Below are positions 2,960 through 34,190 of a stretch of DNA of 50,503 bases, piece after piece. A model generated the notes under the pieces. That model was not told where the DNA came from and ran no database searches. It saw only the letters and a program-made list of their open reading frames with translations. Both the position numbers and the translations under genes were made by a program. Within the stretch, counting starts at the first letter, position 1. Each line of letters starts with the position of its first letter. The stretch comes from a virus, in the IMG/VR virus record IMGVR_UViG_3300033567_000007, positions 1 to 50,503 of that record; one strand, given 5' to 3'.

Positions 2960-4385
2960 AATGGCACGCAGAGAGTTGGCCAAAAGGTCGCTCTCTTTAT
3001 TTTTGCAGTATGAGAGTTACGGCGTTTGGAAATCAGCCAAGCATCTTGATTTGTTGTGTTCGAAGCTTGAAGCAGTGGAGCGAGGAGAATTACACCGATT
3101 GATGGTGTTCATGCCACCTCGCCACGGGAAGTCAGAAGTGGTATCGAAGAAGTTTCCCGCCTGGTTCCTTGGGCGCAACCCAAACAAGGAAGTCATCATC
3201 TCGTCGTATTCTTCCGAACTGGCATATGACTTTTCACGAATAGCCAGAAACACCTTGCGGCAGTGGGGGCCTACACTCTGGAATGTCGATTCGTCGCGGG
3301 ATAGTGGCGCGGTCGGTCGGTGGGGCATTGAGGGCACACGCGGAGGCATGATGGCATCGGGTGTTGGCGGACCAATTACAGGCCGTGGCGCACACGTTGC
3401 CATTATTGATGACCCCGTGAAGAACTGGGACGAGGCTCGCTCAGATACGATTCGTTCCAAGATATTTGAGTGGTATCAGTCGACATTGCGGACGCGTCTT
3501 GCACCAGGTGGAGCAATCGTCCTTGTGATGACTCGTTGGCATGAGGATGACTTAGCTGGACGCCTTCTGCAGATGTCATTAAGCGGTGAAGGTGAGCAGT
3601 GGGAGGTTATTTCTCTGCCTGCAGAAGCCGAAGAGAACGACGCGCTTGGGCGCAAAGCTGGCGATGTGCTGTGGCCTGAGCGATTCAGCCTTAAAGAATA
3701 TCGCTCGATGAAAAAGGCTGTTGGTTCGCAAGTATGGGGAGCGCTTTATCAACAGCATCCTAGTCCGTCTGAAGGCGGTATGCTCAAGCGCGGATGGTGG
3801 AAGTTCTACAAAGCGTTGCCTAACGATATCGAAGAACAAATTCAGTCGTGGGACTTAACCTTCAAAGAGGCAAAAAACAACGACTATGTAGTTGGGCAGG
3901 TGTGGGGAAGACGTGGCGCGGACAGGTACTTAATTGACCAAGTTCGAGCGCGTATGAACTTTCCAGACGCACTCAATGCCGTACGCTCTCTCACGGCAAA
4001 ACACCCCAAGACATTCACCAAGTTAGTCGAGGATAAAGCCAACGGACCGGCACTCATATCTACACTCAAACGCGAAATCAGCGGACTCATACCTGTTGAA
4101 CCACTTGGAAGTAAAGAAGCTCGTGTCTCGGCCGTATCGCCGCAAATCGAGGCAGGAAACGTATATCTGCCCGATCCGAGCATTGCACCGTGGGTTCATG
4201 ACTTTATCGAGGAATGCGCCGCATTTCCGACCGGAGCACACGATGACCAAGTGGACGGAATGAGCCAAGCGCTGTTGCGGTTTAGCCGTGGGGGTGGATG
4301 GCTGGCGTGGCTCGAAGGAGAAATGGAGGACGAAGGCGATGAACAAGCTCATGCAGACGGACTTGACCCGCAAGTACGAATGTAG
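2919..4385 (+). CDS. terL: Terminase large subunit (ATPase and nuclease)
   Basis: 488 residues from TTG 2919; ATG 2961 is an alternative start without a good ribosome site. The packaging motor domain has the Walker A motif PPRHGKSE near residue 66, Walker B HVAIIDDP near 160 and the coupling segment VMTRWHEDD. The C-terminal RNase H-like nuclease has SWDLTFKE near 310, LVEDKANG, and GAHDDQVDGMS near 440, which supply the acidic metal ligands. It pumps DNA into the prohead and cuts the concatemer. All key motifs appear intact. Confidence 0.93.
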   Translation: MPRLTEAKRKTVAEMARRELAKRSLSLFLQYESYGVWKSAKHLDLLCSKLEAVERGELHRLMVFMPPRHGKSEVVSKKFPAWFLGRNPNKEVIISSYSSELAYDFSRIARNTLRQWGPTLWNVDSSRDSGAVGRWGIEGTRGGMMASGVGGPITGRGAHVAIIDDPVKNWDEARSDTIRSKIFEWYQSTLRTRLAPGGAIVLVMTRWHEDDLAGRLLQMSLSGEGEQWEVISLPAEAEENDALGRKAGDVLWPERFSLKEYRSMKKAVGSQVWGALYQQHPSPSEGGMLKRGWWKFYKALPNDIEEQIQSWDLTFKEAKNNDYVVGQVWGRRGADRYLIDQVRARMNFPDALNAVRSLTAKHPKTFTKLVEDKANGPALISTLKREISGLIPVEPLGSKEARVSAVSPQIEAGNVYLPDPSIAPWVHDFIEECAAFPTGAHDDQVDGMSQALLRFSRGGGWLAWLEGEMEDEGDEQAHADGLDPQVRM

Positions 4386-4470
4386 CAGGTGTGAGGACAC
4401 GGGGGTTATGGCTGGCGGGAAGCCTTGCACGTGTAAGAGGGGGAAACAAAATAAACGGGAAAGGGAGTGA
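4339..4470 (+). CDS. Small zinc-knuckle protein overlapping terL
   Basis: ATG at 4339 lies eight bases after GGAGG and inside the end of the large terminase gene in another frame. The 43-residue product has CSRCEDTG and PCTCKRG, a CxxC...CxC pattern like one DnaJ-type zinc knuckle, and a basic tail. It ends in GTGA overlapping a possible next start. Several other genes here encode similar knuckles. Unknown role. Confidence 0.5.
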   Translation: MNKLMQTDLTRKYECSRCEDTGVMAGGKPCTCKRGKQNKRERE

Positions 4471-4478
4471 CCACTTAC

Positions 4479-4724
4479 GTGGATGTTCAAACAACAAGTT
4501 CATTCCCTAAAGTGAAACGCCGTCAATTGTGCCATTACAATGAATCGGATGGATATCAAAATGCTCATGTATCGCGCGTCTTTGATGGCGGCTTCGAACT
4601 AACAAAACAAGACGGTAATATTGTGCGGTTTTTAGAGTCTAAGTGGGATGCTGGAGACGCCTCTCCATTTTTTTGGCTTATGCGCAAAGGAAGACCGATG
4701 AAGAAACCTTGGAGTCAATTCTAA
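4479..4724 (+). CDS. Hypothetical protein between terminase and portal
   Basis: GTG at 4479 is placed nine bases after AAGGGAGTGA; GTG 4467 is an in-frame alternative four codons earlier. The product of about 80 residues is beta-rich (QNAHVSRVFDGGFELTKQDGNIVRFLESKW) and ends in a basic, proline-containing tail. It is followed by the portal gene 18 bases later. I do not recognise a family. Confidence 0.6.
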   Translation: MDVQTTSSFPKVKRRQLCHYNESDGYQNAHVSRVFDGGFELTKQDGNIVRFLESKWDAGDASPFFWLMRKGRPMKKPWSQF

Positions 4725-4742
4725 TAAGGAGGACTGCGATAG

Positions 4743-7373
4743 ATGCATGATCTCATGAAGTCTGGGCGCTCTGTCGCGTCCTCTTTTAGTTTGGAGGCAC
4801 AATCGTCGTTTGCGGGTAAAAGTCCTGCTGCACCTGCTCAGGTGCCGGACGCCACACAAGAGGCGATGCGCGAGCAAGGCATGTCGGAGGGCGGCAACTT
4901 CTCGCCGGGTGAACCGATATCCCCGTATCAGCAAGTCGGCACACCGCCGATCATCACGCCGTACCAGGTCGGGCAGAACATCTTCGCCGTCCCGCGTGGC
5001 CTGACTGGTGTCGGATTCGGGGCGCTGACGAACATCACAAGCAAGTGGGACGTTGCACGTCTGTGCATTGAGGTGCGACAAGACGAGATCCGAAACTTGG
5101 ATTGGGACATCGTTGTCGACAAGGATTCAGTCGATGATCCAAACCTCTATGATGCTGAGATTAAGGCAGCAAAACAGTTTTTCAACCATCCGTCACCGGG
5201 CCAAGATTTTGATGATCTGATTATGACCGCGTCGGATGACTGGCTAAGGTACGACGCGCTCACTATCGCAAGGATGCGGACCAGGAATGGCAAGCTAGGC
5301 GCACTTGAAGCCATCGACGGTACAAGCATTGCGCCACTTATCGATGGTCGAGGAGCAATGCCACGCGGCGAAGCCCCTGCATACGTCCAGTGGTCGTGGG
5401 GCCTACCGTGGGTGTGGCTGACTGAGCGAGATATCATCTACAAGCCTCATCATCCGCGTACACAGACGCGATACGGCCTTCCACCGGCTGAATGGGTGCT
5501 CCTCACCGCAAACACGGACTTACGCCTACAATGGTACTTTCTCTCGTATTTCACCGAGGGAGCGGTCCCGGAGGCGTTCGTAAACGCGCCACCAAATGTG
5601 GAGGACCCAAAGCAGGTTAAAGCACTCCAAGACGCTTATGACGCCACAATAAGTGGGTCACGAGGCGCACATCATAAGGTCAAATGGATCCCGCCCGGAA
5701 GCAATGTCCACGCGGTTAATAAAGGTAATTTTGATGTTGGGCTTGCTGGCTTTTTGGTTGCCAAAGGGTGCGCAAGTTACAAGGTGCAACCTGCTGAAAT
5801 CGGGTTTACTGAAAAGGTCAACAAGTCAAGTGGCGACACCCAAGAGAATGTGACTTATCGGCGATCCATCATCCCGACGGTCAAGTATTTTCAGAGCATC
5901 TTCAACAAGATTCTTCGCGAAGACATGAACATGCCATACGCGCGGTTCAAGTACCTCGACATCGAAGAAGAGGAAGACCAGTTGAAGCTGGCGCAGACAC
6001 GCTCTGTCTACATCCAAAACGCCGTACTGTCGCCTGACGAGGTACGTAAGGAACTTGGCTACGCCGTCGACGAGAACGCGCCTGTCGGCCGTGCCTTCGC
6101 CATGCGTACAGGCGTTATCTTCGTCGACCCAGACTCGCAGAAGTTTGCGCGTGAGCAAGGGAACGTCGCACAGCAATATGGCATTGACGTATCGGGCGAC
6201 GACGCGACTTCCGAAGATGATGAGATGCTATCGACGCATCAGGCGATGTCGGTACCGGTGATCAAACCACTCCCTGCCAAGCCTGTACAACAGCAGACGC
6301 AACAGCAACCGAGCCCGACACAGAACACAAAAGCATCCCAAGATGAACTGAAGAAGTGGCGTGCAGCGGCTGTCAAGCGATCGAAAGATGGCAAGCTTGC
6401 GAAGGAATGGCAGAGTAACGTGCTGGACCAGCTACTTGTCAAAGTGATCAACAGCCAGTTGACTGCATCGTCCACGCCTGATGACGTAAGAAGGGTGTTT
6501 GAGCCGCTGATTGGCGGTGATGCACCTGTAAATTTTATGAAACGGACGATTAAACGCGGTAAAGGTAGGGTGGTCGTCCGTGATACTGAGAAGCTCCAAA
6601 AACATACCGACGCGTTGAAAATGCACATATCCGTGTTGCTGAAGCGCGAAGGCGAGCAGATATCCAGATACGTCACGAAGGCCATTCAAGAACAAGGTCA
6701 AACGTATATCACGACAGAGGAATCAACGACACCGGCTGTCAATCCAACGGTTCTTGATGCGATTCTGGCGTCTTATGGCTGGCAAGGATGGGACAAGCAT
6801 CTGAAATCCACAATAGATGAGTCGGCAAAGGAAATCTTCCTGCAGGGCGCGATTGAAGGCGCGAAGACGGTTGGCGTCAACCTCTCGTTTGACATGGTTA
6901 ATCCGCTAGCTGTCGAATACGCCGAGAAACGCGGGGCAGAGTTAGTCGGCAAGAAGAAAATCGCCGGTGAATGGGTGGACAATCCAAATCCGAAGTTTAG
7001 CATCCCTGACGCCACACGAGAAATGGTCCGAAAGCACGTTGTTGCAGCGGTAAAGGAAGGTCAGTCGATACAGCAGTTGCAAAAGGGTATCCAAGAACAC
7101 TACGCTTTCAGTGACAGCCGAGCACAAACGATTGCCAGAACGGAAACGGGGTTCGCATACAATGGCGGATCGAACGCGGGGTTCCGTCAAGCCCAGGTGC
7201 AGCACGTCGAGGTCTTCGATGGTGACGATGACCCAGAGTGCGCAGCTGCGGACGGCTCGACGTGGACGGTGGACTACGCAGAGGAACATGCTCTAGCTCA
7301 TCCGAACTGCGTGCGGGCGTTCGGACCTATTCCGCCAGATGAAGATCGAGACTATGTGCCGTCTACTGAGTAG
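4743..7373 (+). CDS. Portal protein fused to a MuF-type head protein
   Basis: 876 residues, ATG nine bases after AAGGAGG. About residues 70-480 look like a phage portal: VARLCIEVRQDEIRNLDWDI, LGALEAIDGTSIAPLI, YGLPPAEWVL and a long C-terminal helix region. A Q-rich linker and helical part follow. About residues 750-860 form a Mu gpF/SPP1 gp7-like domain with ARTETGFAYNGG, DGDDDPECAAADG and HPNCVRAFGPIPP. The portal is the DNA gate at one capsid vertex, and MuF proteins ride with the DNA or help head assembly. The two are separate genes in many phages; here they share one frame with no stop between. Confidence 0.87.
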   Translation: MHDLMKSGRSVASSFSLEAQSSFAGKSPAAPAQVPDATQEAMREQGMSEGGNFSPGEPISPYQQVGTPPIITPYQVGQNIFAVPRGLTGVGFGALTNITSKWDVARLCIEVRQDEIRNLDWDIVVDKDSVDDPNLYDAEIKAAKQFFNHPSPGQDFDDLIMTASDDWLRYDALTIARMRTRNGKLGALEAIDGTSIAPLIDGRGAMPRGEAPAYVQWSWGLPWVWLTERDIIYKPHHPRTQTRYGLPPAEWVLLTANTDLRLQWYFLSYFTEGAVPEAFVNAPPNVEDPKQVKALQDAYDATISGSRGAHHKVKWIPPGSNVHAVNKGNFDVGLAGFLVAKGCASYKVQPAEIGFTEKVNKSSGDTQENVTYRRSIIPTVKYFQSIFNKILREDMNMPYARFKYLDIEEEEDQLKLAQTRSVYIQNAVLSPDEVRKELGYAVDENAPVGRAFAMRTGVIFVDPDSQKFAREQGNVAQQYGIDVSGDDATSEDDEMLSTHQAMSVPVIKPLPAKPVQQQTQQQPSPTQNTKASQDELKKWRAAAVKRSKDGKLAKEWQSNVLDQLLVKVINSQLTASSTPDDVRRVFEPLIGGDAPVNFMKRTIKRGKGRVVVRDTEKLQKHTDALKMHISVLLKREGEQISRYVTKAIQEQGQTYITTEESTTPAVNPTVLDAILASYGWQGWDKHLKSTIDESAKEIFLQGAIEGAKTVGVNLSFDMVNPLAVEYAEKRGAELVGKKKIAGEWVDNPNPKFSIPDATREMVRKHVVAAVKEGQSIQQLQKGIQEHYAFSDSRAQTIARTETGFAYNGGSNAGFRQAQVQHVEVFDGDDDPECAAADGSTWTVDYAEEHALAHPNCVRAFGPIPPDEDRDYVPSTE

Positions 7374-7405: not shown

Positions 7406-9445
7406 GTGGCAGACAAGGTAAGTATGTTTGCGCCGTTCTCGAAGGTCGAAACGACTTCAAATGGTGGAAGGGAAGTATGGGGATTTGCAACATTGGAACG
7501 CAAAGACAAGGTAGGAGAGATTGCAGACTTCGACCGTACGGTGAAGGCGTTTCAAAACTGGTCTGACGAAGTTTCCAAGCGTACAGGCGGCAAGTCGATG
7601 GGAAATGTCCGTGTAATGCACCAAGCGGTCACGGGTGGAAAAATGACGCACTGGGAACCGGGCGAAACGGAAATTGTCGACGAAAAAGGCAACAAACAGA
7701 CGGTTAAGGGAATTTGGACAGCCACATATGTTCCGCCGCACAAAACCGACGTCATCAAAGATATTGACGAAGGGATCTTGAGTGGCCTATCCATCGGCGG
7801 TGAATACGAAGAAAGATGGTGGGACGAAGCCCAAAAGGGATTCCGCTTCGCGCCAAAACTTGCCGAATACAGTTTTGTGGATAATCCATGTGTCGAAGGA
7901 GCGGACATTGTGAATGTCATTGCAAAGGCAGATGGCCCGTGGTCGAGAACCGACCGAAATCTGTCTAAAGCAACTAACGAAGAGCGCGAAAAACTCCACG
8001 CCGATGCCGAAGAACGTGCCAAGTCATCCGGAATCGCGGTCAAAGATGGCGGACACCTCACACCGCCGAAGGGCAAGCCGACCGACGAAGCTGAGTACGC
8101 CGATCCCACTAACTACGCTTATCCGATTGACTCCGCGCATATCAAAGCCGCTGTGGGTTACTTCAACCACCCTGATGAGCGCGAGAAGGGAGGGTATAGC
8201 GAATCCGAGTGGGCAATCATCGGCAAACGCATTGCAGAAGCCGCGAACAAGCTCATCGGTGACGGTCACGAGTACAAGGACGGCACCATCGAGACGTCCG
8301 ACGAGCGCAAGGCAGCAGACAAGGCCGCGTGGGGCGACTTGTGCAAGCGCGCTGGTGTCGGTGGTGAGTTGTCTTACGAGGACATCCGCCAACTGGTTAG
8401 TGCCGCAATCAACAAGGGCAATCCCATGTTGGACTTCTGGGTATGTGACACGTATCCGGAATATGTGATTGCAGACGACTGGGAAACGGGTAAGTGGTGG
8501 AAAGTGCCGTACACACTTGATGGAACTGATATCACGGTCGGAACACCAGAAGAAGTCACACAGGGCGATTGGAAGCCCGTAAAGGAGGCCAACAAATTGG
8601 AAGATACACCTGTTCAGAAGATGGATCCGGACGAGACAGTTACACAGAAGATTGCGGATCTCGAAGCCGCGATCGCTGCGGTTGAGGCGGCGCAAAAGAA
8701 GGACGTTCAGACAGGTGGGACAAGCCAGACTGATACAAACGTAGACGACAAGCTTCAAGCCGCCAAGGATGCTGTTGCGCAACTTAAAGCCGCACAGATG
8801 AAGGATAACTCAGCCGAGGATAAAGAAGACGCTGAAAAGTCTATCACGGCTCTTGAAATCCTCAAGACCATCAACGGACGTTTGGAGAAGCGTGGAACAG
8901 CCATCTCCGCTACGCGTCGCAAGCATCTGCAACATGCCGTGGACCACATTCACAAGGCCCTCGGTGAAGATGACAAGATTGGCGACAAGGAGCACATCGA
9001 CGGCGCGTCCACCACTCCCGACGGAGGCATGGATGCCGAGAAGTTTGTTGCTGCCGTGCTTGCAAAGTTGGACGGTACGACTTTGCAAAAGTCTGCACCT
9101 GATATTGGTGGTGCGCTGACCCAAGCGTTGGAGAACGCCGGGTTGGCAAAAGCTGATGTTGTGTCTACCTTATCCGAGCAACTGACCAAGGCAGTGGAGC
9201 AGATTGCAACACTGGAGGGTCTGGTGAAGGAGATAGGGGAACAGCCGCAGCCGAACGGTCCACACATGGGCGCGTATCCAGGACTCGGCGGAACTATGCC
9301 GTGGCAGGGCGTTGAAAAGTCCATCCTCCAAAGTACGATTGACCGCATCGCAGACCCCGTTGTTAAAGACCAAGTTGGTCAATCGATGGCTACGGAGCTC
9401 TTGTTAGCCCAGATGGGCGGAGCGCGTAGACCGACTGGCGCGTAA
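7406..9445 (+). CDS. Prohead protease/scaffold fusion (XkdF-like)
   Basis: GTG 7406 follows AAAGGAGTTG at eight bases; the upstream GTG 7385 lies before that site. About 679 residues. Residues 1-175 resemble XkdF/prohead protease: REVWGFATLERKD, VRVMHQA (possible catalytic His), GLSIGGEY (possible Ser) and the typical ending AEYSFVDNPCVEGADIV. Residues about 200-290 carry the ADPTNYAYPIDSAHIKAAVGYFNHP segment common beside phage proteases. The rest is acidic, helical and coiled-coil-like with Ala/Lys/Glu repeats, as expected of a scaffold. It likely shapes and then processes the prohead. Confidence 0.75.
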   Translation: MADKVSMFAPFSKVETTSNGGREVWGFATLERKDKVGEIADFDRTVKAFQNWSDEVSKRTGGKSMGNVRVMHQAVTGGKMTHWEPGETEIVDEKGNKQTVKGIWTATYVPPHKTDVIKDIDEGILSGLSIGGEYEERWWDEAQKGFRFAPKLAEYSFVDNPCVEGADIVNVIAKADGPWSRTDRNLSKATNEEREKLHADAEERAKSSGIAVKDGGHLTPPKGKPTDEAEYADPTNYAYPIDSAHIKAAVGYFNHPDEREKGGYSESEWAIIGKRIAEAANKLIGDGHEYKDGTIETSDERKAADKAAWGDLCKRAGVGGELSYEDIRQLVSAAINKGNPMLDFWVCDTYPEYVIADDWETGKWWKVPYTLDGTDITVGTPEEVTQGDWKPVKEANKLEDTPVQKMDPDETVTQKIADLEAAIAAVEAAQKKDVQTGGTSQTDTNVDDKLQAAKDAVAQLKAAQMKDNSAEDKEDAEKSITALEILKTINGRLEKRGTAISATRRKHLQHAVDHIHKALGEDDKIGDKEHIDGASTTPDGGMDAEKFVAAVLAKLDGTTLQKSAPDIGGALTQALENAGLAKADVVSTLSEQLTKAVEQIATLEGLVKEIGEQPQPNGPHMGAYPGLGGTMPWQGVEKSILQSTIDRIADPVVKDQVGQSMATELLLAQMGGARRPTGA

Positions 9446-19298: not shown

Positions 19299-20126
19299 AT
19301 GCCAAACATACCGTCAGCCGGTAATGTGTACGGTATTGGTGCTACCGTTGGAGCAGGGACGTATCCTGTTTTCGGGAGCAAGGATAGTGCAGGTAACCTT
19401 GTGACGCCATTCGGCAACTTTGTGTGGAATCCGAATCTGGGTGCAAGTGGCTTGTGGGTGCCATGGCCTGTTGACGCAAACGGAAACCCGCAAGTGTCGC
19501 TATCTGGCAGTAGTGTTGTAGGTATTGCAGATGGCGGTAATAACGCGGAAATTAGTCAGTTTGGTAGTAGTGATGGATTAGGCGTAACACACGAAACATT
19601 TCTGACAGCGTCATGGGCATTTATCTACGGTACGGCAGGATGGGATAGATTGCATTCTGCTGACAATATGGCGGGTTTTGGGTCAACAGGAAAATACACA
19701 ATCCCTACTGTTCCATATCTCTATAACGGTACAACTTTTGACATACAGCAAGCCAACACCCAAGGCACACTCCTAGCGAGTGCGGCGAGAACTGCAACGA
19801 CTTTAAGCGCGAATCAAATAAACTACAACGGTAAAGGGGTTATCTTTACTCTGAATATAACCGCCGCAAGCGGGACAGGGGGTTTAACGATTGTCCTTCA
19901 CGGTGTAGACCCGATTAGTGGACTTAACTATGACCTGAATACCGCCGCGGCGGCAATTACAGCGCAGGGTGAATATGCGTTCGTGTTTTATCCGGGTGCA
20001 AGCGGGACATCCACATATATCAAACAGACAAATTCTATTGTCCTGCCTAGGACATGGAACATAGGCGTGGGAGCTGGAGATTCTTCATCTTACACATATT
20101 CCGTAGGATACCAGCTCATCAACTAA
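19299..20126 (+). CDS. Tail/fibre protein with beta-sandwich domain
   Basis: ATG 19299 eight bases after TTGGAGGG. 275 residues, Gly/Thr/Ser/Asn-rich. The second half (TLLASAARTATTLSANQINY, GVIFTLNITAASGTGGLTIVL, YAFVFYPGASG) is a repeated-strand sandwich of the type seen in virion decoration and fibre proteins. It probably faces the host. No catalytic motif is seen. Confidence 0.65.
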   Translation: MPNIPSAGNVYGIGATVGAGTYPVFGSKDSAGNLVTPFGNFVWNPNLGASGLWVPWPVDANGNPQVSLSGSSVVGIADGGNNAEISQFGSSDGLGVTHETFLTASWAFIYGTAGWDRLHSADNMAGFGSTGKYTIPTVPYLYNGTTFDIQQANTQGTLLASAARTATTLSANQINYNGKGVIFTLNITAASGTGGLTIVLHGVDPISGLNYDLNTAAAAITAQGEYAFVFYPGASGTSTYIKQTNSIVLPRTWNIGVGAGDSSSYTYSVGYQLIN

Positions 20127-20142: not shown

Positions 20143-20439
20143 ATGACCATGCAATTCTTATCCGCAACTACAGACGCGCAGGGCATCCATTACTCTGTGT
20201 GGCTTGATACAACAAAAACTGACGCAGGAGGTCAACCCGATTCAACATATGTTAAAAGCTACGATTGGGCACCATGTCCGATGGATCCCGATGGTACACC
20301 AAACTGGGAAGGTGGTGCATCGGCATACGAGCAAATGACGCTTGACGAAGTCAAGTTACTCGCCCAAGCAGACCTCCATGCCATGACCGCACCAACTCCA
20401 GCACCAACAAATTTGTCAGTTCACGGCACAACGTTTTAG
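20143..20439 (+). CDS. Small tail-fibre-region protein
   Basis: 98 residues, ATG 20143 behind AAAGGGGGCGG. Content: QFLSATTDAQGIHYSVWLD, then an acidic helix (YEQMTLDEVKLLAQADLHAM) and a Pro/Thr tail. Such proteins often follow fibre genes. It ends just before the structured leader of the recombinase gene. Confidence 0.6.
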   Translation: MTMQFLSATTDAQGIHYSVWLDTTKTDAGGQPDSTYVKSYDWAPCPMDPDGTPNWEGGASAYEQMTLDEVKLLAQADLHAMTAPTPAPTNLSVHGTTF

Positions 20440-20455
20440 CCACTTTCGGGTGCAA

Positions 20456-20630
20456 ATGCGGCATCCAAAAGTCGCTAACTCACGGGACTGCGACGGTTTG
20501 ACGCATGGGTGACAAAGGGGTATTTTGAATATGCAGGCTAGGTTGGCCTCATGAACCAACCGAAACGCGTCTAGGGGCGCGGCCTGCTCGCCGCAAGGCG
20601 ATACCCTAGGAAAACACCTACCCTAGGAGG
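20456..20630 (+). ncRNA. Structured leader upstream of the Xer-like recombinase
   Basis: The 198 bases between the fibre gene and the recombinase hold no gene but many pairings. ATGCG (20456-20460) pairs with CGCAT (20502-20506) around GTCGC/GCGAC (20471-20475, 20490-20494). GGTTGG (20541-20546) pairs with CCAACC (20556-20561). CTAGGG (20571-20576) pairs with CCCTAG (20604-20609), enclosing a CGCC-GCAA-GGCG tetraloop hairpin. A second CCCTAG (20621-20626) overlaps the AGGAGG ribosome site. CTAGGG could pair with either copy, so the leader could switch translation on and off. It could equally be DNA target sites (CCTAGG is palindromic). No known riboswitch class was recognised. Confidence 0.5.
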
Positions 20631-20637
20631 TCATACC

Positions 20638-21480
20638 ATGCGTCTGTCCGAAGCTTCTTCGTCTTATCTGTTACAGTTGGAGCAAGAACGTTACTCGCCA
20701 TGCACTGTCAAGGCTTACCGGATTCAACTCAACCTTCTTGCTCGTGATCTCGATGACATGGAAATCGACGTTGTCACGCTCCAACACCTGCGCGAACACT
20801 TATCGCATCACGGGCACCTAAAGCCATCCAGCATGGCGCACAAAGTTAAGAGCGTTCGAAATCTCTTCCGGTGGCTTGTTGAGGAAGAGTATTTGGTGCG
20901 TAATCCATCGCTCAAGTTAAAGGAACCTAAACAGGGTGAGCGTGTGCCAAAAGCACTGACGGTTGACGAGATTGAGGAATTGCGCGAAGCATGTCAGTCA
21001 CCACTCGAACACGCATTGCTTGAATTTTTCTTCGCGACAGGTTGTCGGCTATCTGAGGTGCAATCATTGAATCGCAACGCAATCGATTGGAATCGTAAGG
21101 CGGTCGTCGTGATGGGTAAAGGCTCGAAGGAACGAGAGGTGTACTTCGGTGCTAAGGCAGCGGTTTGGATGCGTAGATACCTCAACGTACGGAAAGATGC
21201 AGATATGGCGCTGTTTGTGACGGTAAACAAGCCGCATCGTATTGGCATTCACCGTATCCAATGCATTTTCAAACAGATCGCAGAACGATGTGGGCTCGCG
21301 GAGAAGGTTTCCCCACACAAGTTCAGACATTCGTTAGCCACGACATTGCTAAATCAGGGTGCGCCAATAGCGGCAGTGCAGAGTTTGCTTGGCCACTCCA
21401 AACCGGAAACGACGCAAGTGTACGCGAAATTAAGCGGCGCATCCAGACAGCAAGCCTACAATCGGTACTTCGTTCAGTAA
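20638..21480 (+). CDS. Xer-like tyrosine recombinase inside the tail region
   Basis: 280 residues, ATG eight bases after AGGAGG. N-terminal SAM-like core-binding domain (residues 1-95), then the catalytic domain with R137 (TGCRLSEV), K161/K164 (MGKGSKER), H227 and R230 (HKFRHSLAT), H253 (LLGHSKPETT) and nucleophile Y262. All active-site residues are present. It looks like XerC/XerD or IntS enzymes that cut and join DNA at short inverted sites. The phage has a separate serine integrase, so this enzyme probably does something else: tail-gene rearrangement, multimer resolution, or its own mobility. It is followed by a strong terminator. Confidence 0.88.
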   Translation: MRLSEASSSYLLQLEQERYSPCTVKAYRIQLNLLARDLDDMEIDVVTLQHLREHLSHHGHLKPSSMAHKVKSVRNLFRWLVEEEYLVRNPSLKLKEPKQGERVPKALTVDEIEELREACQSPLEHALLEFFFATGCRLSEVQSLNRNAIDWNRKAVVVMGKGSKEREVYFGAKAAVWMRRYLNVRKDADMALFVTVNKPHRIGIHRIQCIFKQIAERCGLAEKVSPHKFRHSLATTLLNQGAPIAAVQSLLGHSKPETTQVYAKLSGASRQQAYNRYFVQ

Positions 21481-21496
21481 CCACGCATCAAAAACT

Positions 21497-21523
21497 AAGG
21501 CCGTCCTCCGGGGTGGCCTTTTT
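21497..21523 (+). terminator. Rho-independent terminator after the recombinase
   Basis: AAGGCC (21497-21502) pairs with GGCCTT (21515-21520), with an inner CC/GG pair around TCCG, followed by TTT. It isolates the recombinase from the fibre genes downstream. Confidence 0.75.
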
Positions 21524-21539
21524 GATTGGAGGGGCTCAT

Positions 21540-22022
21540 ATGCAAACTGTCCTAGATGACGTTATCCGCACGCGGGGCCCGGTGCAATGGATACTGCGAG
21601 ATAAGCACGGCAGATTCGTCAAACGCGGGTTCGGTCGTACATACAACAAGACGAACAACAATGCCCTGTCAGCTCTCGCACAATTTGCAATAGGTGCGTC
21701 TCCGGCGTATCCGACACAGATGCAACTCGGTACAGGTACTGGCACACCATCTGCAACGGATCCCGGCCTATTTACCGCTGCACCTGGAACCGAAATCCCC
21801 ATCACGAATTGGAGTGTATATCAATCTTTTTATGCACAGTATCTCGCTTACTGGGGATCAACGACTCCACCGGGTAACTACAGTGAGGCTGTGTTGCTTG
21901 ACCAAAACGGATTGTGCTGGGCACACGTATTGTTGCAAACGTCAGCGAATCAGCCGTATGTACCGGTGCAGTCCGGACAGACGCTGACCATCCTCTGGAA
22001 GTTACAGTTACTCGGGAATTGA
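21540..22022 (+). CDS. Fibre/baseplate-region protein
   Basis: ATG 21540 behind GGAGGGG; upstream codons in this frame belong to the recombinase gene. 160 residues. The opening (VIRTRGPVQWILRDKHGRFVKRGFG, read in pieces) resembles short phage tail proteins that start with an extracted host-facing strand. The beta-rich rest (TGTGTPSATDPGLF, WGSTTPPGNYSEAVLLDQNG) fits a virion appendage. No enzyme motif. Confidence 0.6.
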   Translation: MQTVLDDVIRTRGPVQWILRDKHGRFVKRGFGRTYNKTNNNALSALAQFAIGASPAYPTQMQLGTGTGTPSATDPGLFTAAPGTEIPITNWSVYQSFYAQYLAYWGSTTPPGNYSEAVLLDQNGLCWAHVLLQTSANQPYVPVQSGQTLTILWKLQLLGN

Positions 22023-22033
22023 GGTGATATTGA

Positions 22034-23113
22034 GTGGGATTTGTAAGGCCGACTGACACACCAGGACAAGCATTGAACGTCATCTATGCTGAACACATCG
22101 CGCAACTCGTTAATGTCCTCACAGGGCAGCGGGACGCAGGTGCCATGTTCTTGCTCGCGCCGATTGGAGCACCGACTACAGCCCCATCGATTACACTCTC
22201 AACTGGATCCATGACCGGATCGTATCAGTGGGGTACGTACTGGATTAGTGGGATAGAGGATGGCACCGGCACATTCAGCATCACAGGCCGCACAACACCG
22301 AGCCCATATAGCACCGCGCAGACATTGGCGAGCCAACAAGGTACTGTGAGTATTGCTGGTGAGACTGTGCCTACCGGAGTCGTTGGGTGGGGCATTGTGC
22401 GCAACCATGCGGGGGGCGCCACATGGTACGAGGTGCCAGGAAGTGAACAATTTGCAAATGGAGTAGGCTCGATGCCGACAACGTATGTGGATGACGTGGC
22501 GGACACGAGTCTTGTAACACCAGCACCGGCCACGAACACAACAGGCACGTCGTTGTCGGGGGCTATCGACGCATTGACGCTCGGAGGCCTTCCATCTACC
22601 GACTACCTCCGCACAGACGCTGGAGCAGGTGCACAGACGGTAGCAGATGCGGTGACGTTTGCGAGTGGCGTGTCGAATGCTTCCGGTCAACTTGGATCAG
22701 CATCCGGTACATGGACACCTGCAAGCGGGAGTTTGAACGTCGCGGTCGGCACGGTGATCAATTTAGCGGCTGTGCCAAGTGGGGCGAAGATGTATCAAAC
22801 CATTGATACAACCGGTCATTATTCGACGATGGGATACTACACATCAAACGGAATCATGACACCAGCTGGCGCGGCAGGTGTTTACTCGTATGTAAACCAA
22901 GATTTAATTCTGCCGTATTGGGCAAATGGAATCAGTAGTACGACTGGAACAGCATCTGGATTGTCAAATTTCGCCCCAACTCATGTCTATGACGGCTCGT
23001 ACCAAACGGACGGATACTTCCAAATAAACAACGGTTACCTACAATTTGTCACAACATCCGCGACGTCACCAATTTCCGCGAATTCATCCACTGTCCGTTG
23101 GGGGGTCGCATAA
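22034..23113 (+). CDS. Tail fibre-like protein
   Basis: GTG 22034 after GAGGTGAT. 359 residues, low in charge and rich in Gly, Thr, Ser, Ala. A short N-terminal adaptor (VRPTDTPGQALNVIYAEHI) is followed by many strands and a segment IDALTLGGLPSTDYLRTDA that is typical of repeated fibre shafts. It likely binds the host surface. The C-terminal end may be the receptor-binding tip. Confidence 0.7.
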   Translation: MGFVRPTDTPGQALNVIYAEHIAQLVNVLTGQRDAGAMFLLAPIGAPTTAPSITLSTGSMTGSYQWGTYWISGIEDGTGTFSITGRTTPSPYSTAQTLASQQGTVSIAGETVPTGVVGWGIVRNHAGGATWYEVPGSEQFANGVGSMPTTYVDDVADTSLVTPAPATNTTGTSLSGAIDALTLGGLPSTDYLRTDAGAGAQTVADAVTFASGVSNASGQLGSASGTWTPASGSLNVAVGTVINLAAVPSGAKMYQTIDTTGHYSTMGYYTSNGIMTPAGAAGVYSYVNQDLILPYWANGISSTTGTASGLSNFAPTHVYDGSYQTDGYFQINNGYLQFVTTSATSPISANSSTVRWGVA

Positions 23114-23700
23114 TGTACTATTGGCTAATCACAAATGACACAACGGGTGCAATCGGCACAGGGTCAAGCACACACCTACCGGACAACTCTCTCGCGCTTA
23201 GTGGGTTCTCGTTTCTCGGTCCGTACGATGACTCAGGTAACAAGATGGACTCTGCGACACAGACAGTCTTTGACACACCGCAAGCGTGGCTATATCAGGG
23301 TGGCAACTTCGTCGCGAATCCATCATACAACGCGAATGCTATTGCACTTGCAAATGCCAAGACCGTACAGACAGCGGCGATCAACTCAGCCTACGCCAGC
23401 GCAATGGCCGCAGGCTTTGCATCCTCGGCAGATGGTACAGCACGCACATACGATGCAAGCCCTGAATCGTTGCAAGAATTAGGATGGGTACGACCTGTTC
23501 CACAAGCAAGCTACCCGACGACAGGTTTACCTGCAAAACTGATTGACGGAACACATATTCCGCTCAGTTATGCACAGATGCAACAGCTTATTTCAGACGG
23601 TCAGACATTCTTCATGGTGAACAAAGGAAAGAAAGTTGGGTATCTTAACGCGATCATTTCAGCGTCAACAGTAGCAGAGGTGCAATCCGCGACATGGTGA
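23113..23700 (+). CDS. DUF4376-like tail fibre assembly protein
   Basis: ATG 23113 coupled to the previous stop (TAATG), preceded by a G-rich ribosome site. 195 residues. The central segment AAINSAYASAMAAGFASSA and the end (FFMVNKGKKVGYLNAIISAS, STVAEVQSATW) match the DUF4376 pattern found at the end of fibre clusters. It is thought to be a virion or fibre-associated protein. Confidence 0.65.
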   Translation: MYYWLITNDTTGAIGTGSSTHLPDNSLALSGFSFLGPYDDSGNKMDSATQTVFDTPQAWLYQGGNFVANPSYNANAIALANAKTVQTAAINSAYASAMAAGFASSADGTARTYDASPESLQELGWVRPVPQASYPTTGLPAKLIDGTHIPLSYAQMQQLISDGQTFFMVNKGKKVGYLNAIISASTVAEVQSATW

Positions 23701-23754: not shown

Positions 23755-23776
23755 CATGTCCATAGGAGGTGAGATT

Positions 23777-25440: not shown

Positions 25441-25770
25441 TTGACGGACTATCTCGTTTGCCGTGGATGCCAAAACACAGGTCGCAACACCTTCACCAAA
25501 GACGGATATTGCGGCTGTCCAAACGGAATTGCGTTGAAACTAAAAGGAGGAAGCACAATGAAACCATCAGTAGGAAGAATCGTCCATTATTTTAGTTACG
25601 GGACTCCAAACGGAGAATGCAAGAGTGAGGCCAGAGCCGCCGTCGTGACAGGTGTTGTTGACGCCACAACCGTTCATCTATGCGTATTGAATCCTACTGG
25701 CCAGTTTTTCAACCTGAACGTAAAGCAGGGTACTCAAGGTGGTCAGTGGGACTGGCCGGAGCGTGAGTGA
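25441..25770 (+). CDS. Zinc-knuckle extension in frame with a conserved phage protein (long form)
   Basis: TTG 25441, coupled to the previous stop and preceded by GAGAGGTGATG, gives 109 residues. The first 39 residues hold CRGCQNTG and GYCGCPNG, a CxxC...CxC knuckle like those of other small genes here. The frame then runs without a stop into the next, conserved part. A strong internal ribosome site and ATG sit at the join (see 25558-25770). Either the long fusion is made as well, or a stop between two genes has been lost. Confidence 0.5.
   Translation: MTDYLVCRGCQNTGRNTFTKDGYCGCPNGIALKLKGGSTMKPSVGRIVHYFSYGTPNGECKSEARAAVVTGVVDATTVHLCVLNPTGQFFNLNVKQGTQGGQWDWPERE
25558..25770 (+). CDS. Conserved small phage protein (internal start form)
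   Basis: ATG 25558 lies after AAAAGGAGG with ideal spacing. The 70-residue product (VGRIVHYFSYGTPNGECKSE, LCVLNPTGQFFNLNVKQG, GQWDWPERE) matches a frequent small phage protein that normally starts at this Met. Role unknown. Confidence 0.7.
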   Translation: MKPSVGRIVHYFSYGTPNGECKSEARAAVVTGVVDATTVHLCVLNPTGQFFNLNVKQGTQGGQWDWPERE

Positions 25771-32570: not shown

Positions 32571-34127
32571 TCACACCAACGGATACAGCGTCAAACTGAA
32601 GTCATCCACCTGTTGCCATGGTTCTTTCGTGTACACAGCCTTCTCAAGCACGGTCTTGAGGAGGTTATTTTTTGTCTCTGCACTATCTAGCGTGCGATAA
32701 ACTTCCAAAACATGCCGCACGTGCGGGATCACGTCTAATCGCGCCTGCGCTGTGCGTTCGGACTGTGTGCGGTCCTCTTCTATCTGCCCCCGTTGCTCTC
32801 GAAGTTCGCGGAGTTTGGCATGTAATTTTTGGTTGCGGTCGAGGTACGTCGCGTCATCGTAAATTCGCCGTTCCAATAAATCGTGCAACTCGTCTTGCTG
32901 ACGAACGACCTGTTGAATTTCGGTGTCAATCTGCCGGAGTACCCGCGCATGATCCAGCGATGTCTCACGCTTTGAATTCATCGCGGCGGCAACTTCTTCG
33001 ACGGAGACCTCGTATTCTCTGAGCCAAATAGAAAGCGCCTCTAAAACCTTGCCTTCCACGATGGATAGCCGCGTGCTCTTGTTGTTGCAGCTGGGATAAT
33101 GACACATGATGTGGGGCGGCTGCTTCCCGTATGGGCGGCGCATCATCTTCTTGCCGCATTTGCCGCATACGATTATCCCCGCTAACGGATTGGAGACTTG
33201 ATTTTTCTTCGGCACCGGCGCATTCGATCTGCGCGCGCGAATCTCGACACTGCGTTGCCAAGTCTCTGCATCGACAAGCGGATCATGCTGTCCTTTGGCG
33301 CGGATGTGTTCTGACTCTGGCCGTTTATGTGTGACACCCTTGCGCTTATCCCGCTTCGCTTTACGCCAAACAATGTATCCTGCATAGACCTCGTTGCGCA
33401 ATAGTGGCATCACCATGTCGCCGTTCCACACCTTACCTTTAGGTGACTTGATACCGATTTGGTTCAGGTATTCCGCTACGCGCTTGCCGCCCAGGTGTTT
33501 ATTAACGTACAAGTCAAAAATCAACCGAATGGTATCGGCGTGCTCGTTTGGCGCGAGAACAAGGTCCCGGTTGACGTCGTATCCAAACGGCGGTGTCGTG
33601 CCGATATACTTACCTTCCATAACTGACGCGATCCGGCCGCGTTGCATGCGTTTCGTGATCATTTTCAATTCTCTACGCGCGAAGAACGTTTTGAACTCTG
33701 TCCACTCTTCGTCCATCTCGTCGGTGAGGTCATACACTTTGTCCGGCGTCAGGATGAGTGTCGAACTATCTTTGAAAGCCCTTAGAATAGCACCCTGGTC
33801 GGCCATGTCACCGCGTCCAAGCCTGTCAAGGTCCATCACCCATACACCAGTTACGTGACCCTCGTCTACGTCCTCTAGGAGCCTCTGCATTGCGGGGCGT
33901 TCGGATATGTACTCACCGGACACCACTTCTTCGAGGACTTGAGTAACATTGTGCTGGTATTTGTGGGCAAGATTCAGGAGCGTGCGCCGATGCCTGGCTA
34001 AAGTCTCGATTTCATCGGATCGTCCTTCGCGGCGTGCGCGTTCCTCCGCGTCACGATCCTCTCGGGACTTGCGGACATATAGATAGACATCGTTGAGATC
34101 CGTCGGAAAGTCCGAGTGGAGTGCCAT
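32571..34127 (-). CDS. int: Large serine integrase
   Basis: ATG 34127 (minus strand), nine bases after AAGGAGG; the frame extends upstream to 34175. 518 residues. Resolvase domain with catalytic S21 in YVRKSREDRD, then VWVMDLDRLGRGD and RRELKMITKRMQRGR. The recombinase domain (TPPFGYDVNRDLV, KGKVWNGDMVMPLLRNEVYAG in parts) is followed by a zinc ribbon (CGKCGKKMMRRPYGK, CHYPSC) and a coiled coil. Integrates the phage into the host chromosome, presumably at an attB matching the attP beside it. Leftward, transcribed away from the repressor. Confidence 0.93.
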   Translation of the reverse strand: MALHSDFPTDLNDVYLYVRKSREDRDAEERARREGRSDEIETLARHRRTLLNLAHKYQHNVTQVLEEVVSGEYISERPAMQRLLEDVDEGHVTGVWVMDLDRLGRGDMADQGAILRAFKDSSTLILTPDKVYDLTDEMDEEWTEFKTFFARRELKMITKRMQRGRIASVMEGKYIGTTPPFGYDVNRDLVLAPNEHADTIRLIFDLYVNKHLGGKRVAEYLNQIGIKSPKGKVWNGDMVMPLLRNEVYAGYIVWRKAKRDKRKGVTHKRPESEHIRAKGQHDPLVDAETWQRSVEIRARRSNAPVPKKNQVSNPLAGIIVCGKCGKKMMRRPYGKQPPHIMCHYPSCNNKSTRLSIVEGKVLEALSIWLREYEVSVEEVAAAMNSKRETSLDHARVLRQIDTEIQQVVRQQDELHDLLERRIYDDATYLDRNQKLHAKLRELREQRGQIEEDRTQSERTAQARLDVIPHVRHVLEVYRTLDSAETKNNLLKTVLEKAVYTKEPWQQVDDFSLTLYPLV

Positions 34128-34156
34128 ATGTGATGTTCCTCCTTGTCGGTATGATG

Positions 34157-34190
34157 GGTATATTATAGCGCTCACATAATGACCGGAGAT
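34157..34190 (-). promoter_or_regulatory. Integrase promoter candidate
   Basis: A perfect -10 box TATAAT (plus strand ATTATA, 34162-34167) lies about 35 bases upstream of the int ATG. A convincing -35 box is not seen, so it may need an activator. Confidence 0.45.

Follow-up and report, generated by a model that had tools for sequence, protein, structure and literature searches.

The window considered here, the whole 50,503-nucleotide stretch of IMG/VR virus record IMGVR_UViG_3300033567_000007, raises the question of why a phage that already has a serine integrase, probably its integration enzyme, also carries a tyrosine recombinase gene in its tail region. The initial annotation correctly recognized both the complete tyrosine recombinase and the serine integrase, and placed the former between fibre genes, with a 198-base leader and a terminator of its own. 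The reading favored here, with a probability of roughly 0.6, is that a cassette-type recombinase was captured by the phage and has been kept active by selection.

The kin of the window phage are prophages of Alicyclobacillales. Two of these, L170 and L175, retain counterparts of the gene at 23756 and of the two genes that precede the recombinase, with no recombinase at the corresponding locus. A second phage, L002 (IMG/VR contig 3300033567_000008), encodes a recombinase with 98% amino acid identity to that of the window. The features of the window locus, and the serine integrase, are as follows.

20143 to 20439, plus strand: 98-amino-acid tail-region gene upstream of the insertion (tblastn identity 61% to L170 and 53% to L175).
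20440 to 20460, plus strand: 3' UTR of the 98-amino-acid gene, CTTTCGGGTGCAAATGC..., ancestral and outside the inserted unit.
20461 to 20470, plus strand: left direct repeat bounding the unit, GCATCCAAAA, matching 21485-21494 at 9/10 positions.
20466 to 20500, plus strand: candidate recombination site, CAAAAGTCGCTAAC-TCACGG-GACTGCGACGGTTTG, with the core TCACGG at 20480-20485.
20498 to 20526, plus strand: predicted sigma-70-like promoter, TTGACG-N17-TATTTT, with a counterpart in L002.
20533 to 20637, plus strand: probable structured and transcribed 5' leader, based on fold z, pair counts and pairing probabilities.
20604 to 20610, plus strand: first CCCTAGG copy, read from the sequence.
20621 to 20627, plus strand: second CCCTAGG copy, overlapping the Shine-Dalgarno sequence AGGAGG (20625-20630).
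20638 to 21480, plus strand: Xer-like tyrosine recombinase of 280 amino acids, identified by profile and catalytic-residue match.
21485 to 21494, plus strand: right direct repeat bounding the unit, GCATCAAAAA, present once, as GAATCAAACA, at the empty locus of L175.
21497 to 21520, plus strand: intrinsic terminator hairpin, with a homologous terminator directly after the 98-amino-acid gene in L170 and L175.
32571 to 34175, minus strand: large serine integrase (PF07508, PF00239, phrog_95).

Comparison with the empty locus separates what is ancestral from what is inserted. The UTR motif CTTTCGGGTGCAAATGC follows the stop codon of the 98-amino-acid gene in L170, L175 and L002 as well as in the window. 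In L170 and L175, this stop codon is followed by an GGGTGCGAATG-like UTR and, 20-30 nt further, by the terminator. Joining the window flanks (20437-20461 to 21487-21540) recreates this layout, and the inserted unit therefore spans approximately 20461-21484. Judged by this alignment of loci, a unit of about 1.02 kb has entered between the 98-amino-acid gene's 3' UTR and the terminator of that same gene; the initial annotation had recognized neither this insertion nor its relationship to cassette recombinases of the hosts. It follows that the hairpin at 21497-21520 is not the recombinase's own terminator, as had been proposed, but is ancestral to the upstream gene. The direct repeats bounding the unit are clear only in the window, and an equally good match arose in 36 of 2000 shuffles. 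Searches with the 98-amino-acid gene revealed no recombinase-less relatives besides L170 and L175. The related contig L020, which comes from the same sample, has no recombinase in the stretch examined. The position among tail genes holds for the window, with a fibre-family match found only for the gene at 23098-23700.

The open reading frame at 20638-21480 matches the tyrosine recombinase profile PF00589 (E=3e-36) as well as phrog_1, and retains all six catalytic residues (R137, K161, H227, R230, H253 and Y262); the recombinase is real and intact. The recombinase-bearing unit has been seen in two phages only, the window phage and L002, in which leader, gene and terminator share 92% DNA identity. 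The tail genes flanking the recombinase in L002, including a Baseplate_J protein, have no similarity to those of the window. Between the two recombinase genes there are 58 synonymous and 5 nonsynonymous codon differences (dN 0.011, dS 0.385), and the resulting low dN/dS of about 0.03 indicates that the protein is under strong purifying selection. L002 also contains, at 4223-4818, two tandem 39-bp repeats that start with TCACGG and are followed by an HNH-type endonuclease gene, an insertion that separates the UTR of the tail gene from the promoter of the recombinase.

The nearest relatives of the phage recombinase, with 57-69% identity, are found in Alicyclobacillales and Sulfobacillia. Their distribution is sporadic (14 of 59 Alicyclobacillales and 6 of 154 Sulfobacillia genomes), and they are often present in multiple copies, some of them decayed. 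Within the Alicyclobacillales cassette-recombinase family, the two phage enzymes group together on a single supported branch. This branch is long and separate (0.37 changes per site), suggesting that the site preference of the phage enzyme may have shifted.

The Alicyclobacillales relatives travel on mobile single-gene cassettes. Their genes are followed downstream by a site in which inverted arms enclose GGGCAG, for example TTGCACTCTTGGGCAGAAGTGTGCAA, and homology between copies stops there. The pattern TTSNNCNNNNGGGCAGNNNNGNNCAA has 28 matches in the 59 genomes, compared with 3 for the reversed control, and a matrix built from host sites detects 56 sites in 97 kb over nine loci (L125, at G166:C1:3505500-3518500, and L138, L139, L137, L077, L078, L076, L133 and L128), with none for the reversed control. 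The array sites follow the consensus TTGMRC-N4-GGGCAG-N4-GYKCAA, share one orientation within a locus and are typically spaced 0.6-2.5 kb apart, with one or two open reading frames between them (NUDIX, metallo-beta-lactamase fold, phosphoesterase, DinB, Fic and others). Among the genes carried by these chromosomal cassettes are recombinases of the phage family. Two genomes have one 2.1-kb recombinase cassette in common, and their homology stops 1-4 nt from the sites; other cassettes are found again in different contexts. A recurrent TGGTAAAAT motif lies just upstream of the 3' site in chromosomal cassettes, as in L070, L073, L065 and L071, and resembles a promoter that faces outward, toward the next cassette. 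The equivalent Sulfobacillia site is built around the core GGGCCG and, scored by its arms alone, falls in the top 0.03-0.17%; the cassette arrays described here are those of Alicyclobacillales. Two Sulfobacillia relatives (L009, at 6887, and L010, at 1799) have the site CACTAAC-GGGCCG-GTTAGCGACC, and L009 has an additional similar site with the core GGGGGC at 8360.

The open-access papers searched, where absence is not proof, contain no account of such GGGCAG arrays, which are apparently an undescribed gene-shuffling system. The nearest published systems are integrons and the dif modules of Acinetobacter. As in integrons (IntI/attC), the host relatives occur in arrays of mobile single-gene cassettes with sites in the same orientation. 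However, the phage enzyme is not an IntI, reaching 100 bits against a cut-off of 265 for the integron integrase model TIGR02249 and 65 against 435 for NF011946. In addition, the sites of the family are short, dif-like double arms, and the recombinase itself is borne on a cassette. The attC sites of integrons are unlike these short inverted arms around a 6-bp core. In Acinetobacter plasmids, genes flanked by Xer-type sites are described as moving as modules in a XerCD-dependent manner (PMC6449649; PMC13141974). In contrast, the Alicyclobacillales arrays are chromosomal, their sites point one way and the recombinase gene is on a cassette.

A family-like site at the 5' end of the phage unit (…CTAAC|TCACGG|…) may be a recombination site, although the match is suggestive only. 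In L002, the corresponding sequence is CAAAAGTCACTAAC-TCACGG-GTTAGGTAGTTTTTG, and homology between the two phages breaks at the TCACGG core; in L002, the 39-bp repeat and the HNH-type gene come after this site. With the host-site matrix, the candidate arms rank in the top 2-4% for the window and in the top 6-9% for L002, in the right register, and the CTAAC-N6-GTTAG skeleton of the Sulfobacillus site is exact in L002. The phage core TCACGG differs from the host cores GGGCAG and GGGCCG. Neither the 3' end of the unit nor the rest of the phage yielded a matching core and arm; having the 5' candidate alone, the phage gene, unlike its Alicyclobacillales relatives, does not lie in a cassette that has a family site of one and the same core at each end. 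TCACGG is common in the L002 tail genes (12 plus-strand occurrences in 9.2 kb), TCACGG-core sites are at control level in the 154 Sulfobacillia genomes, and the homology of the L002 sequence past the HNH gene to the right arm of the window is not significant. The 5' candidate is nonetheless the putative target of the phage recombinase. Other sequences were considered as sites. A host-matrix match at 19487-19528 was judged a coincidence because it lies within a fibre codon motif (L-x-G-S-N) that is also present in L170 and L175, and pairs of CCCTAGG as a dif-like core were rejected, having no support in the family.

Upstream of the gene, the predicted promoter has a counterpart in L002 (TTGACG-N18-TAAATT at 4858-4887). 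Promoter matches in the region are no more numerous than expected by chance, so the support for this one comes from its shared position. The conserved leader block begins at the predicted transcription start. Of the 198-base leader described in the initial annotation, the structured part is retained for 20533-20637; the remainder includes the UTR (20440-20460) and the promoter region (20498-20526). The 105-nt leader has a fold z of -3.26 in the window, where none of 200 shuffles was as good, and of -2.56 in L002, compared with only -1.84 for the whole 198 nt with the start codon. The predicted fold consists of a three-way junction (GCAGGC/GCCTGC), a GCAA-loop hairpin and a last stem, in which the two CCCTAGG copies pair together with a probability above 0.98 and bury half of the Shine-Dalgarno sequence. 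The CCCTAGG copies at 20604 and 20621, the CTAGGG at 20571 and the overlap of the second copy with the ribosome site are all where they had been reported. The switch proposed from them, in which CTAGGG pairs with either CCCTAGG copy, is not the stable form, as its pairing probability is at most 0.0001 and forcing it costs 7-10 kcal/mol. What survives of the suggested translational control is thus a structured leader over the ribosome site.

How much weight this leader can bear depends on its conservation. The pairing of the helix 2 hairpin is kept through one double (compensatory) and two single (wobble) changes between the window and L002, and the shuffle control for covariation between these two sequences is not significant (252/500). 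A 107-nt stretch identical in both phages runs from the leader into the coding region, and may for this reason be a recent recombination tract. Searches of the window and leader against Rfam gave no gathering-level match (best E ~2), a leader search of the 59 Alicyclobacillales genomes found none, and the conserved leader core was found in IMG/VR only in L002. A search of IMG/VR with the pattern ACTTTCGGGTGCRAATGC gave one extra match, a coding coincidence in an unrelated phage. CCCTAGG occurs twice in the window, equal to the chance expectation (mean 1.9), and is not in the leaders of chromosomal relatives; the idea that leaders of the family are enriched in CTAG was likewise rejected, as most relatives show no such enrichment. 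The good folds in both phages, the buried Shine-Dalgarno sequence, the retained helix and the conserved block starting with the transcript would all suit a genuine cis-acting RNA switch on translation, responding to a ligand, protein or temperature, as the main interest of the locus. However, this idea draws on two sequences, which cannot prove regulation, and with the control, the possible recombination tract, the Rfam result and the unfavorable alternative pairing set against it, such a switch is possible but rather doubtful.

Another explanation is an ordinary dimer-resolution enzyme of the XerC/XerD type, or a second phage integrase. The phage enzyme is like XerC, XerD and XerA (PF00589) in fold, catalytic residues and length, XerD is its best solved relative, and the sites of the family resemble dif in having a 6-bp core flanked by two short inverted arms. 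However, the enzyme scores below the NCBIfam equivalog cut-offs for XerC (215/335 bits), XerD (201/330 bits) and XerA (196/220 bits), the family cores are GGGCAG or GGGCCG rather than dif, and the genes are accessory, multi-copy and cassette-borne. As the phage already has a serine integrase, and the unit is an accessory insertion not present in relatives, this explanation is very improbable. Slightly better, though still quite unlikely, is that the recombinase flips or shuffles tail-fibre genes by DNA inversion, like the tyrosine invertases of hsdS and surface genes, with the CCCTAGG repeats having been put forward as the sites. The location of the recombinase among tail and lysis genes agrees with this, and hsdS/PsrA-type tyrosine DNA invertases are related to it at approximately 34-37% identity. 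Such distant relatives lie between hsdM and hsdS-like genes in two gut contigs, MT835621 and MT839915 (L007, at 3948-6853, and L006), the L007 locus being framed by a 31-nt inverted repeat; L007, deposited as phage, is likely a phase-variable type I restriction locus. In the Terrisporobacter phage TPELB_ph1 (L005), an Xer-like recombinase at 7719-8714 sits between a tail-region gene and a holin gene; this phage has a serine integrase too, and no clear inverted repeats were found. These relatives make fibre switching not absurd, only unsupported. Unlike the invertase loci, the window locus has neither inverted repeats nor duplicated gene ends. No inverted repeats of at least 18 nt able to flip the fibre genes were found in L002 or at 15-25 kb in the window, where the only two pairs of at least that length are imperfect and either precede the fibre genes or form a local palindrome. 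The proposed CCCTAGG sites, missing from the leaders of relatives, fare no better, and the neighboring fibre genes are equally different in L020, L170 and L175, which have no recombinase.

A passive origin deserves more weight than inversion, but is still unlikely. Here, a host recombinase gene would have been acquired by chance and expressed in the lysogen, with a benefit on the host side, such as the movement of host cassettes, and no role on phage DNA. The unit resembles phage morons in being an accessory gene with its own predicted promoter between late genes, not found in L170 or L175, and differs from them in relying on a pre-existing operon terminator and in encoding a recombinase with a structured leader. 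The purifying selection on the recombinase and the many GGGCAG cassette sites in hosts fit a host-side benefit, as does the borderline nature of the phage's own best full-matrix match (TTGAAAAACTGGCCAGTAGGATTCAA, at 25679-25720 on the minus strand), whose score is reached by 2 of 60 simulated windows. Against this stand the long separate branch of the phage enzymes and the family-like site at the unit's own 5' edge. Going further than capture, the phage might carry a functional platform belonging to an integron-like system not described before, in which the recombinase and its own site at 20466-20500 can capture cassettes, the HNH insert of L002 was captured right after the core, and the host arrays use a different core; this proposal is a tentative one.

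Under the favored reading of a captured and selectively maintained cassette recombinase, a unit of about 1.02 kb with an active Xer-like enzyme landed between a tail gene's 3' UTR and its terminator. The gene would probably be expressed from its own predicted promoter, with the structured leader dampening translation, and would use the terminator of the tail operon in a moron-like arrangement. The enzyme most likely acts at a family-type site, with short inverted arms ending in CTAAC/GTTAG and a 6-bp core, and probably at the one located at the unit's 5' end, with self-movement or DNA capture as the outcome.

This locus links a phage to an apparent chromosomal cassette system outside integrons, whose double-arm site resembles dif and whose Xer-like enzyme is itself carried on a cassette. 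Should the phage enzyme be functional, the logic of the site, in which the arms are conserved and the core is variable, could be tested with one 280-amino-acid protein and 35 bp of DNA, and phages would be able to carry, supply or spread cassette machinery.
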